The notes beneath the pieces are model-generated. The model was not told where the DNA came from. It did no database searches and saw only the letters and a program-made list of their open reading frames with translations. The position numbers were made by a program, and so were the translations under genes. A stretch of 64,000 nucleotides of DNA from Haloglomus salinum (GTDB lineage Archaea; Halobacteriota; Halobacteria; Halobacteriales; Haloarculaceae). The first letter of the stretch is position 1. Every line of letters begins with the position of its first letter. Of the stretch, positions 44,119 through 49,847 are shown in pieces. Location of the stretch: NCBI RefSeq assembly GCF_024298825.1, contig NZ_CP101153.1:3472001-3536000 (forward strand). Direction: 5' to 3'.

Positions 44119-44517
44119 ATGGCACAAACTACGGAACGACTTCGGCGCTATCTCGACGACGAGCTCGGGGAGTGTCGCGACGAGGACGTCGAGCGTCGGC
44201 TCGACGAGCTGGGGACGCTCGAAGCGGCGCTCGGGAGCGCGCAGGTGGACGCCGAGCTCGACGTGGTCTCGGCACTGTCCAACGAGACGCGGTACACCCT
44301 GGTCCGTGTGCTCGTCGCCGCTCGCGAGGAGCTCTGTGTCTGTGAACTGAACGCGGTCGTCGACGTGACCGAGAGCGGGCTCAGTCACGCGCTGTCGAAG
44401 CTCGTCGATGCGGGGCTGGTCGACGGCCGGAAGGACGGCCGGTGGAAGAAGTACCGTGCGACCAACCGGGCCGTGGCGCTCGTCACCGTCCTCGAGGGGA
44501 GCGTGAGCGATGAGTAA
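44119..44517 (+). CDS. arsR: ArsR-family arsenite-responsive repressor
   Basis: 132 residues. A winged helix with the canonical metalloid site ELCVCEL (C73, C75) in the alpha3 helix region, then the recognition helix VTESGLSHALSKLVDAGLV and the wing GRKDGRWKKYRA. An N-terminal extension of about 45 acidic residues is longer than in most ArsR proteins. It overlaps the ACR3 gene by 8 bp, so one transcript is certain. Release from DNA on arsenite/antimonite binding is expected from the family. Confidence 0.94.
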   Translation: MAQTTERLRRYLDDELGECRDEDVERRLDELGTLEAALGSAQVDAELDVVSALSNETRYTLVRVLVAAREELCVCELNAVVDVTESGLSHALSKLVDAGLVDGRKDGRWKKYRATNRAVALVTVLEGSVSDE

Positions 44518-45676
44518 CGCCGACGCGCACGACCACGGGCCCGACTGCGGCTGTGAGAGCTGTGGGGACCCGCGGTCGATGGACTTCCTCGACAAGTACC
44601 TCACCGTCTGGATCTTCGGTGCGATGGCGGTCGGTGTCGGGCTCGGGTTCGTCGCCCCGTCGGTGACCCAGCCGATACAGGACCTCCATCTCGTCGAGGT
44701 CGGCCTCATCCTGATGATGTACCCGCCGCTGGCGAAGGCCGATTACTCGCAGCTTCGGGCTGTGTTCAGCAACTGGCGCGTGCTCGGGCTGAGCCTCGTC
44801 CAGAACTGGCTCATCGGCCCGACGCTGATGTTCGGACTCGCGGTCGTCTTCTTCAGCGGCCTCGTCCCCGGGCTGCCACCCCGTCCCGAGTACTTCCTCG
44901 GCCTGGTGTTCATCGGGATGGCCCGATGTATCGCGATGGTGCTGGTCTGGAACGAGCTCGCCGAGGGCTCGACCGAGTACGTCACCGGGCTGGTGGCGTT
45001 CAACAGTCTCTTCCAGATCATCACCTACGGCGTCTACGTCTGGTTCTTCGCCCTGTTCCTCCCGCCGCTGCTCGGGATGGAGTCGCTCGCCGCCGGCATC
45101 ACGACCTTCGATATCACGCCGATGCAGGTGGTCGAGGCCATCGTCATCTTCCTCGGACTCCCGTTCGCGGCCGGCTTCCTGACACGCTACGTCGGAACCC
45201 GCGTGAAGAGCGAGACGTGGTACGACGACGAGTTCATCCCGACAATCGACCCGCTGACCCTCGTTGCGCTCCTGTTCACCGTCATCGTGATGTTCGCCAC
45301 GCAGGGGGGCACCATCGTCGCCGCACCGGGCGATGTCCTGCTCATCGCGGTGCCGCTGACCATCTACTTCGTCGTGATGTTCCTCGTGAGCTTCGGGATG
45401 GGCAAGGGTATCGGCGCGGACTACTCGACGACGACGGCCATCGGGTTCACGGCCGCGTCGAACAACTTCGAGCTGGCCATCGCCGTCGCCGTGGCGGTGT
45501 TCGGCGTCGGCTCCGGCGTCGCGTTCGCGACCGTCGTCGGCCCGCTCATCGAGGTGCCCGTCCTGCTGGCGCTGGTCAACGTCGCGCTCTACTTCCAGCG
45601 GAAGTTCGACTGGGGCGGTGCCACGGCGGGTGGGCTCCCCCCGACCGCCTCGGAACCGGCGCCCGAGGACGACTGA
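44510..45676 (+). CDS. ACR3 family arsenite efflux permease
   Basis: 388 residues, ten helices. The essential Cys of TM4 is in GMARCIAMVLVWNEL (C140), the usual ACR3 pattern. A His/Cys-rich N-terminal tail (D-H-D-H-G-P-D-C-G-C-E-S-C-G, residues 5-19) could pre-bind metalloid, which is unusual for ACR3. It exports As(III) in antiport with protons. Directly downstream of arsR. Confidence 0.95.
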   Translation: MSNADAHDHGPDCGCESCGDPRSMDFLDKYLTVWIFGAMAVGVGLGFVAPSVTQPIQDLHLVEVGLILMMYPPLAKADYSQLRAVFSNWRVLGLSLVQNWLIGPTLMFGLAVVFFSGLVPGLPPRPEYFLGLVFIGMARCIAMVLVWNELAEGSTEYVTGLVAFNSLFQIITYGVYVWFFALFLPPLLGMESLAAGITTFDITPMQVVEAIVIFLGLPFAAGFLTRYVGTRVKSETWYDDEFIPTIDPLTLVALLFTVIVMFATQGGTIVAAPGDVLLIAVPLTIYFVVMFLVSFGMGKGIGADYSTTTAIGFTAASNNFELAIAVAVAVFGVGSGVAFATVVGPLIEVPVLLALVNVALYFQRKFDWGGATAGGLPPTASEPAPEDD

Positions 45677-47146: not shown

Positions 47147-47509
47147 TCAGGCTTCCCCGTCGCGTTCCTGTGCCCACTCGAGGAGCGGGTCGAGGAGCGT
47201 CCGGAGCTCCGCGCCCTCGTCGGTGAGCCGGTACTCGACGCGGGGCGGGATCTCGTCGTACTGCTCGCGCTCGAGGAGTCCGGCCTCGGTCAGGTCGTCG
47301 AGTCGGGTCGACAGCGTGGAACTGCTGACCTCCTCGAACGCCTGCTCGATCTCTCCGTACCGGACCGGTTCGAGCGCCCCGACCACGCAGACCACCTGCA
47401 TGGCGAACTTCCGGCTGAGCAGGTCCATCACGCCACCGAGGGGGCAGTAACAGCGGGTGTCGTCGGGCAGTTCGGTCGTCTCGTCGGCGCTGGCGGTATC
47501 CCGGGACAT
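47147..47509 (-). CDS. HxlR-type winged-helix regulator
   Basis: 120 residues from MSRDTASADETTELPDD. The HxlR fold is clear: CYCPLGGVMDLLSRKFAMQVVCVVG with the conserved Cys, then YGEIEQAFEEVSSSTLSTRLDDL and VEYRLTDEGAELRTLL. Its two near-adjacent N-terminal Cys (CYC) could sense redox or metal. Divergent from the MerB-like gene, which it may control. Confidence 0.9.
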   Translation of the reverse strand: MSRDTASADETTELPDDTRCYCPLGGVMDLLSRKFAMQVVCVVGALEPVRYGEIEQAFEEVSSSTLSTRLDDLTEAGLLEREQYDEIPPRVEYRLTDEGAELRTLLDPLLEWAQERDGEA

Positions 47510-47536
47510 GGGTTCGACGCGTCGAAGCTGATTCAA

Positions 47537-47578
47537 TACTTCGGACTCGATAGTACAAGTGCTTTGGTATCCGAAGTA
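47537..47578. promoter_or_regulatory. 9-bp perfect inverted repeat in the hxlR/merB-like intergenic
   Basis: TACTTCGGA (47537-47545) and TCCGAAGTA (47570-47578) with a 24-bp spacer. It fills the 76-bp divergent promoter region, so a dimeric regulator bound at both arms could control both genes. Confidence 0.6.
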
Positions 47579-47585
47579 AGGTCGC

Positions 47586-48245
47586 ATGTCGAGTCAGACG
47601 ACCGACTGCTGCGACCAGTGTGGTACCGAGACGACGAACGAGACTGCCGGCGGACGTGCGGGTCCGGCTCCGGACTCGCGGTGGCTCACGGAGCGGCCGG
47701 TCCTCGATGCCGGACTCCCGGCCGACCTCACGACGGCGGCGACCGAGTTCTACGGCGTCGGCCCCGTCGAGACGCTGCGTGACTTCGCGGAGGCGTCGCG
47801 TGCGGTCGCTGGCGGGTCCGTCGAGGTGACGGACCTCTGCCACGTCGAGGGAGACTCCCCCCACCGCGCGATCGCGGGCGAGGAGACGTACTCGTTCAGG
47901 TGTTTCTACGACGGGGTCGCGCTGGCGCGGCTCCAGTCCGAACCGGTCGAACTGCGCACTGAGAGCCCGGGCGGCGCTGTCGTGGAGCTGGAGGTCGCCG
48001 CCGACGGGTCGGTTGCGGTCACGCCCGAGGACGCGGCGATGTCGTTCGGTATCGCGCCGGCCGCCGGCACGCTCGACGACGACCCATCACCAGAGGCCGT
48101 CTTCGAGGCCGTCTGCCCCTGGGTGAAGGCGTTCCCGTCGCGCGAGGCGTACGAGGGCTGGGCCGCGGCCACGGCGGCGCCGACGGTCGGGCTCCCGTTG
48201 GCCGAGGGGACGCCCGTGGCGGCGGAACTCGTCGCAGAGGAGTGA
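47586..48245 (+). CDS. MerB-like (organomercurial lyase family) protein
   Basis: 219 residues. The organomercurial-lyase catalytic set can be aligned: C106 and D109 in FRCFYDGVALA fit MerB C96/D99, and C177 in EAVCPWVKAFPSREAYEGW fits C159. The stretch between (VELRTESPGGAVVELEV) fits the MerB core. The N terminus carries CCDQC (C8, C9, C12), a possible metal-binding finger not seen in classic MerB. No MerA, MerR or MerT is next to it. It could cleave C-Hg bonds or be a related metal-handling protein. Confidence 0.85.
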   Translation: MSSQTTDCCDQCGTETTNETAGGRAGPAPDSRWLTERPVLDAGLPADLTTAATEFYGVGPVETLRDFAEASRAVAGGSVEVTDLCHVEGDSPHRAIAGEETYSFRCFYDGVALARLQSEPVELRTESPGGAVVELEVAADGSVAVTPEDAAMSFGIAPAAGTLDDDPSPEAVFEAVCPWVKAFPSREAYEGWAAATAAPTVGLPLAEGTPVAAELVAEE

Positions 48246-49016: not shown

Positions 49017-49847
49017 ATGGGAGAGCAGGCGGCCCTTGAACGCGTCACGGACCCCGTCACCGTCGACACGCTCGCCAGTGACCTCCGGGCTCTCGGTGTC
49101 GAAGCGGGCGAGACGTTGCTGGTCCACTCCTCGCTGAGCGCGCTCGGGTGGGTCGCCGGCGACGCACAGGCCGTCGTCGACGCGCTCCGCGAGGCCGTCA
49201 CCGCGGACGGAACCCTCGTGATGCCGACACACACGCCACAGTACACCGACCCCGAGGACTGGTCGAACCCGCCGGTGCCCGCCGACTGGGTCGACACCAT
49301 CCGCGACGAACGCCCGCCGTTCCGGCCGGAGGTCACGCCGACCCGGGGGATGGGTGCCATCCCCGAGTGCTTCCGTGGCTACCCGGATGTCCGGCGGAGC
49401 GCACACCCGCTCTACTCGTTCGCCGCCTGGGGCTCCGAGGCCGAGGCCGTGGTCGAGGACCACGAGCTCACCTACGCGATGGGGGAGGGCTCGCCGCTCG
49501 CCCGGGTCTACGAGCGTGACGGCCGGGTACTCCTGCTCGGGGTCGGCCACGACGTCAACACGTCGCTCCACCTCGGCGAGTACCGCGCCGATATCGATGC
49601 CGACCCCGTGACGAGGGAGGCGCCGGTCCGCCGGGACGGCGAGCGAACGACGGTCACGTTCGAGGATGTCGAGACCTCGACCGACGATTTCGCGACTCTC
49701 GGCGGGGCCTTCGAGGACCGGCAGGAGGACGCGGTTGCCCGCGACACCGTGGGTGCGGCCGGGGCACGGCTGGTCGACCAGCCGGCCCTCGTCGATTTCG
49801 CGGTTGACTGGTTCGAGGACTACCGTGCCGGTGACGCCGGAGGGTGA
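49017..49847 (+). CDS. AAC(3) family aminoglycoside N-acetyltransferase-like protein
   Basis: 276 residues. LLVHSSLSALGWVAGDAQAVVDALREAV, then DGTLVMPTHTPQYTDPEDWS and RSAHPLYSFAAWG are the hallmarks of the AAC(3) family. The catalytic His/Glu region is preserved. Chromosomal archaeal homologues probably acetylate other amines, since archaeal ribosomes resist most aminoglycosides. Confidence 0.9.
   Translation: MGEQAALERVTDPVTVDTLASDLRALGVEAGETLLVHSSLSALGWVAGDAQAVVDALREAVTADGTLVMPTHTPQYTDPEDWSNPPVPADWVDTIRDERPPFRPEVTPTRGMGAIPECFRGYPDVRRSAHPLYSFAAWGSEAEAVVEDHELTYAMGEGSPLARVYERDGRVLLLGVGHDVNTSLHLGEYRADIDADPVTREAPVRRDGERTTVTFEDVETSTDDFATLGGAFEDRQEDAVARDTVGAAGARLVDQPALVDFAVDWFEDYRAGDAGG

Follow-up and report, generated by a model that had tools for sequence, protein, structure and literature searches.

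An HxlR-family regulator and an operator common to merB and merA genes of haloarchaea, traced from a divergent merB-like locus in Haloglomus salinum

Introduction

The mer regulators named in reviews belong to the MerR or ArsR families; only merR, arsR and merD are counted as such, and ArsR-like regulators are present at some euryarchaeal mer loci (PMC3466566). Archaeal homologs of the organomercurial lyase MerB have been listed with a Halobacterium sp. DL1 sequence as query, and according to the same study methylmercury demethylation is still undescribed in Archaea (Christakis et al., 2021; PMC8261052). The relevant parts of that study describe no regulator or operator for these homologs. The HxlR proteins YodB and HypR of Bacillus are thiol/oxidant (electrophile) sensors. 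Proteins of the HxlR type are not known to control mercury genes, and no relevant report linking HxlR with mercury was found in the open-access literature searched.

Here we describe a merB-like gene of Haloglomus salinum that is transcribed divergently from an HxlR-family regulator gene. Both lie in a window of 64,000 nucleotides (contig NZ_CP101153.1, positions 3,472,001 to 3,536,000), to which coordinates below refer unless a locus is named. The MerB family is already known; it is the wiring through HxlR and an operator that looks new, and it points to an overlooked haloarchaeal mercury-response system. The regulon of HxlR, operator, merA and merB offers one system in which two questions can be tested: do Archaea cleave organomercury, and is mercury sensed by a third regulator family? 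This regulon also shows how a merB without merA can still belong to a mercury response.

Results and Discussion

A divergent MerB-fold protein retains the catalytic residues

The MerB-like organomercurial lyase gene (47586..48245, + strand; 219 aa) was assigned by its PF03243 match, predicted fold and conserved triad. Residues 90-216 match PF03243 (MerB) at 41.7 bits against a Pfam gathering cut-off of 27, and in a profile alignment C106, D109 and C177 correspond to C96, D99 and C159 of MerB from plasmid R831b. All three residues are invariant in 50/50 haloarchaeal relatives. An AlphaFold (AF2) model, computed from an alignment of 47 haloarchaeal sequences, has a mean pLDDT of 89.3 and matches 11 PDB chains at E<=0.001, every one of them MerB or MerB2 (structural Z 11.2-15.2). 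The top match is R831b MerB (PDB 3f0o; also 1s6l), with a VIA Z of 15.2 over 146 residues and an rmsd of 2.8; the next fold is NosL (Z 4.8), itself a fold cousin of MerB. The family profile retrieves MerB from the PDB at E 8e-8, and a phmmer search of the PDB with the single sequence gave no match, so that only the profile and the model reached MerB in the PDB. We conclude that the protein belongs to the MerB fold family, the fold being predicted by a model, and that it keeps the catalytic residues. A sequence-only reading of the locus had aligned the same Cys, Asp and Cys and pointed out an N-terminal CCDQC, both of which held; it would have been refuted by another predicted fold or by loss of the Cys/Asp residues in close homologues, and neither was seen.

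The protein shares only about 16% identity with R831b MerB, from which it further differs by a Cys-rich N-terminal extension and by the absence of a surrounding mer operon. Canonical C117 is replaced by S127, and Ser or Thr occupies this position in 43/50 relatives, which places the protein in the '117alt' class of the screen by Christakis et al. (PMC8261052). The NCBI MerB models NF009710 and NF033555 score 24.8 and 21.2 bits against cut-offs of 193 and 200, and neither is met. The protein is thus a divergent '117alt' member far under the NCBI MerB cut-offs. It does not represent an unknown branch, and the sequence-only reading is corrected on this point: haloarchaeal RefSeq proteins named 'merB: organomercurial lyase' and the archaeal homologs of Christakis et al. 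lie on the same, already annotated branch, MerB of Haloglomus halophilum is 99% identical, and plasmid-borne relatives are 38-46% identical.

The N-terminal cysteines form the cluster C8-C9-x-x-C12. At least two Cys are present within the first 25 residues of 28/29 members containing a CF[YF]D motif, and within the last 25 residues of 5/21 members without it; that such Cys-rich terminal arms hold Hg(II) is conceivable but only a guess. H93 is invariant (50/50) and C85 nearly so (49/50) among the haloarchaeal relatives, and H93 aligns to a non-His residue in R831b MerB. Organomercurial protonolysis by the Haloglomus protein is inferred, and no activity data are known for any member.

Genomic surroundings

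No MerA, MerR or MerT is adjacent to the merB-like gene, and the criterion for a classical mer operon is not met. The absence of these genes had been noted before and held, but a missing MerA is not exceptional: about half of the genomes with MerB lack it, so an orphan MerB is not new (PMC8261052). No canonical MerA scores over the cut-off anywhere in the Haloglomus genome. The best candidates, at 347 and 311 bits against a cut-off of 454, were rejected; they are without the C-terminal vicinal Cys pair, and the second is matched better by dihydrolipoyl dehydrogenase and mycothione reductase models than by MerA. A flavoprotein at 250-2850 of locus L063 (genome position about 3293540) falls between the dihydrolipoyl dehydrogenase, mycothione reductase and MerA models and lies downstream of a membrane protein that matches no family and has a Cys-Cys motif. 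An aminoglycoside 3-N-acetyltransferase family gene (49017-49847; PF02522, 295 bits), placed two genes downstream of merB, is kept in Haloglomus relatives.

An ArsR-family regulator gene (44119..44517, + strand; HTH_metalloreg NF033788 over cut-off) and an ACR3 arsenite efflux transporter gene (44510..45676, + strand; TIGR00832 acr3, 376 bits, over cut-off) lie 1.9-3.5 kb upstream of the merB-like gene and are given as context only. A general link between MerB and arsenic genes was considered and rejected; among the named loci a close ArsR-ACR3 pair occurs only in Haloglomus and at L076.

These features bear on an alternative in which the substrate of the MerB-fold protein is a different soft metal or organometalloid (arsenic, tin, copper), or in which the protein merely binds metal and passes it on. 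In its favor are the missing C117, the conserved C85 and H93, the latter opposite a non-His residue in R831b MerB, and the ars genes nearby, with ACR3 also present at L076; MerB variants with Ser99 have been reported to bind copper (PMC8261052). Against it, the triad including the Asp is invariant in all 50 relatives, and the close ars linkage is confined to Haloglomus and L076 whereas linkage of the HxlR regulator and operator to merA, described below, is broad. We regard this alternative as very unlikely.

The divergent HxlR-family regulator carries three conserved cysteines

The regulator gene (47147..47509, - strand) encodes a 120-aa winged-helix protein that matches PF01638 at 67 bits against a gathering cut-off of 20.8. 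Its start is likely at 47509 rather than 47587, because the longer reading frame would cross the promoter and because alignments with close relatives begin at residue 1 of the protein made from the inner start; 76 nt then separate the two genes. C20, C22 and C41 are kept in 41/41 non-identical MerB-linked HxlR proteins. C22 is invariant and corresponds to the usual N-terminal Cys of the family, which together with the fold family is shared with YodB and HypR (PDB 5hs7; YybR entries 4a5m, 4a5n). In contrast to those proteins, the Haloglomus regulator is linked to mer genes as targets, and C20 and C41 are restricted to the mer-linked clade. The remaining HxlR proteins encoded in the Haloglomus genome carry no more than the usual N-terminal Cys; neither C20 nor C41 occurs in any of them.

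As with the MerR- and ArsR-type mer regulators (PMC3466566), the regulator gene stands beside a mer gene, often divergently, and sensing is probably cysteine-based; unlike them, the protein is an HxlR winged helix (PF01638) with a CxC and a third Cys. Some of the ArsR-like regulators of PMC3466566 could be the same HxlR proteins under another name, a possibility that would lower the novelty. DNA binding by this HxlR protein, repression as opposed to activation, and mercury as the inducer are all inferred, and mercury binding with mercury-dependent release rests only on linkage and Cys conservation.

A dyad operator brackets the merB TATA-like element

Between the two genes is a perfect inverted repeat with 9-bp arms, TACTTCGGA (left, 47537..47545) and TCCGAAGTA (right, 47570..47578), and a 24-nt spacer. 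The divergent Cys-bearing HxlR gene and the perfect repeat had both been recognized from sequence alone, and both held. The pattern TACTTYGGA-N18..28-TCCRAAGTA occurs once in the 4.19-Mb genome, in the HxlR/merB gap only. The repeat is part of a conserved 50-nt promoter/operator element (47528..47577, + strand; consensus TTGnTTCnATACTTTGGACTTGACAGTATAAnnACTTCGGTTTTCAAAGT, core TACTTnGGACTtgACAGtaTAAnnaCTTcGnnntncaAAGtA) that begins 58 bp 5' of the merB-like ATG and is common to the promoters of about 25 haloarchaeal MerB loci. The position-weight score of the Haloglomus site is 63 bits (leave-one-out 58.9) against a background mean of -82 (sd 15); the calibrated operator model finds this single match in the genome, at E 2.3e-11. 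Since the surrounding 50 nt are conserved in about 25 loci and the dyad symmetry of the element was equalled by only 1/2000 column shuffles, the inverted repeat exceeds chance.

A TATA-like element, TAGTACAA (47551..47558, + strand), was located from conserved alignment columns; it sits inside the operator at -35 to -28 from the merB-like ATG and reads AGTATAA in relatives. That it is a true TATA box is inferred from the general layout of haloarchaeal promoters. The dyad brackets this element and, on the other side, extends into the stretch 28-36 nt before the HxlR start.

Canonical merA genes have this regulator clade and operator as well

A profile of the HxlR clade was searched in 382 Halobacteria genomes, and the positions of its matches were compared with those of MerB and MerA genes in the same class. 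One genome per species was sampled (382-391 genomes drawn per search), and MerA loci were counted only when over the curated cut-off. A clade HxlR gene is divergent to 51/54 such MerA genes, with 102-129 nt between matched ends in 50 of the 51 pairs, and the MerA genes inspected are canonical (GTCVNVGC and C-terminal SCC). Among MerB genes, 30/66 have a divergent clade HxlR and seven more have one nearby.

The 50-nt operator model was trained on MerB promoters alone. Its weight matrix placed the top match in the HxlR-merA gap at 5/5 MerA loci tested, with scores of 35-55 bits where the background of the window is -82 (sd 15). Across the 382 genomes the model gave 117 matches at E<=0.01: 53 directly upstream of MerA, 36 upstream of MerB, 12 at other clade HxlR genes, eight second operators at the same loci and eight isolated. 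The three MerA loci without a clade HxlR are the three without the operator. Within the 28 named loci, the operator is present at every HxlR-linked MerB, the four with a non-divergent HxlR (L072, L074-L076) among them, and is absent from all MerB loci that lack HxlR (L079-L085, L087, L089-L096). These computations show that one operator is shared by merB and canonical merA and that one regulator clade is linked to both. The description of the unit as not of the classical mer type is thereby supported and sharpened.

The data also address an alternative in which the neighboring genes are functionally unrelated and the palindrome is merely a conserved promoter. The existence of some MerB loci (type B) without HxlR and operator speaks for it. 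Against it, HxlR and the operator are found together consistently, at merA as well as at loci with a non-divergent HxlR, and chance rarely reproduces the dyad in the shuffles above. This alternative is all but excluded.

A tree sets the mer-linked HxlR proteins apart from other HxlR proteins with support of 99/97. By computation the MerB-linked ones are one clade, and the MerA-linked proteins form a single group (99/95) nested among them; the tree has few columns and its inner forks are weak. The counts above tally loci rather than independent events: several MerA cassettes appear nearly identical, and transfer may have spread them. As the MerA-linked regulators form one group, their linkage to merA may go back to a single event followed by spread. 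These regulators have C20 and C22 in 25/25 and Ser in place of C41 in 25/25, and the rows shown contain an extra Cys six residues ahead of C20; because of S41, the MerB- and MerA-type regulators may sense different ligands.

At the level of genomes, no link between MerA and MerB was shown. The two occur together in only four genomes (50 and 58 carriers), which is fewer than chance, and the difference is not significant (Fisher p 0.14). One isolated operator in genome G384 (L189) is flanked by a clade HxlR gene and a gene for a MerA-like flavoprotein, and two others (L187 in G384 and L188 in G240) are without a clear target.

A small Cys-Cys protein under the same operator

Four other clade HxlR genes inspected are divergent to a gene for a 112-141 aa protein with an invariant Cys-Cys (QCC), and an isolated operator (G393, L186) is directly upstream of a homolog. 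Genes for QCC proteins are at L118 1940-2353, L122 1940-2278, L127 1080-1418, L131 1988-2413, L075 11503-11841 and L186 1742-2080; none was found in the Haloglomus genome. The one member tested has no match in Pfam or NCBIfam. Distant homologs on bacterial plasmids of Peribacillus asahii, Paenibacillus and Rhodococcus adjoin, or sit inside, MerR-family regulators, and the one in Peribacillus asahii is also close to merA. The QCC protein is possibly a new mercury-linked family. Bacterial QCC homologs also have SBF and DoxX genes nearby.

The range of genes under the operator bears on a third alternative, in which HxlR is a general thiol/oxidant (electrophile) sensor and merA, merB and the small Cys-Cys protein belong to a thiol-stress regulon. 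Membership in the HxlR family supports this idea, as do matches to the NCBI redox-regulator models RrpA/RrpB, which remain under cut-off, and the Rdx/SelW, glutaredoxin-like and DoxX genes at some loci. Against it, nearly all operator sites lie at merA, merB, the Cys-Cys protein or the HxlR gene, and the Haloglomus genome has just one; no ordinary redox gene is under the operator among the loci inspected; and the clade has two extra invariant Cys not shared by the remaining HxlR proteins of that genome. The sequence-only reading had left the choice between organomercurial and thiol-stress sensing undecided. Since the HxlR clade and operator also stand at canonical merA, mercury is favored, and we consider general thiol sensing unlikely.

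A model for HxlR control of organomercurial detoxification

The reading we prefer, and consider likely, is that the locus serves organomercurial detoxification and that its repressor, an HxlR-type protein that probably responds to mercury, stands in for MerR or ArsR; the sensing of mercury and the repression are inferred, as is the lyase activity. Without mercury, HxlR dimers would occupy the dyad around the merB TATA element and reach the HxlR promoter, keeping both genes off. Organic or inorganic mercury would be bound by C20, C22 and C41, and HxlR would be released. The MerB-like protein would then split the C-Hg bond with C106/D109/C177, as MerB does with C96/D99/C159. In other haloarchaea merA would be controlled by the same HxlR clade and operator, HxlR doing the job of MerR or ArsR. 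The fate of Hg(II) after cleavage is likewise inferred: as canonical MerA is absent from the Haloglomus genome, Hg(II) would need another exit there. In Halorussus halophilus a heavy-metal P-type ATPase follows HxlR, merB and the QCC protein, in that order, an arrangement which suggests that Hg(II) could be exported where MerA is missing.

Several points weigh against this reading. They are the replacement of C117 by S127, the missed NCBI MerB cut-offs, the lack of known activity or induction data, the absence of a canonical MerA from the genome, the small number of genomes with both MerA and MerB, S41 in the MerA-linked regulators, and the grouping of these regulators together, by which their tie to merA may be a single event.

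A bolder reading would make the HxlR clade with CxC and a third Cys a haloarchaeal class of mercury sensors, with merA, merB and the small Cys-Cys protein as a dispersed regulon that it controls by way of a single conserved dyad around the TATA element. The third Cys is placed differently in the two types, as C41 in the merB type and as the upstream Cys, with S41, in the merA type, and the types would thereby tell organic from inorganic mercury. The balance tips slightly against this version.

Other neighborhoods of haloarchaeal merB genes

The type B neighborhood of MerB, without HxlR and operator, is represented by L080-L082, L084, L085, L090, L092 and L096, where a regulator of the HTH_10 (bacterio-opsin-activator-like) type adjoins MerB. 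A class I SAM methyltransferase is directly beside MerB in several type B loci; a link of MerB to one methyltransferase was rejected for the HxlR-MerB unit, as it is seen only in this neighborhood. A rhodanese/metallo-beta-lactamase fusion adjoining an MFS-like transporter is present in L089 (7418-9826) and downstream of MerB in L096. Near HxlR-MerB pairs, genes for SBF (bile acid:sodium symporter family), DoxX, Rdx/SelW and glutaredoxin-like proteins recur, as in L074 (10657-13823), L075 and L097.
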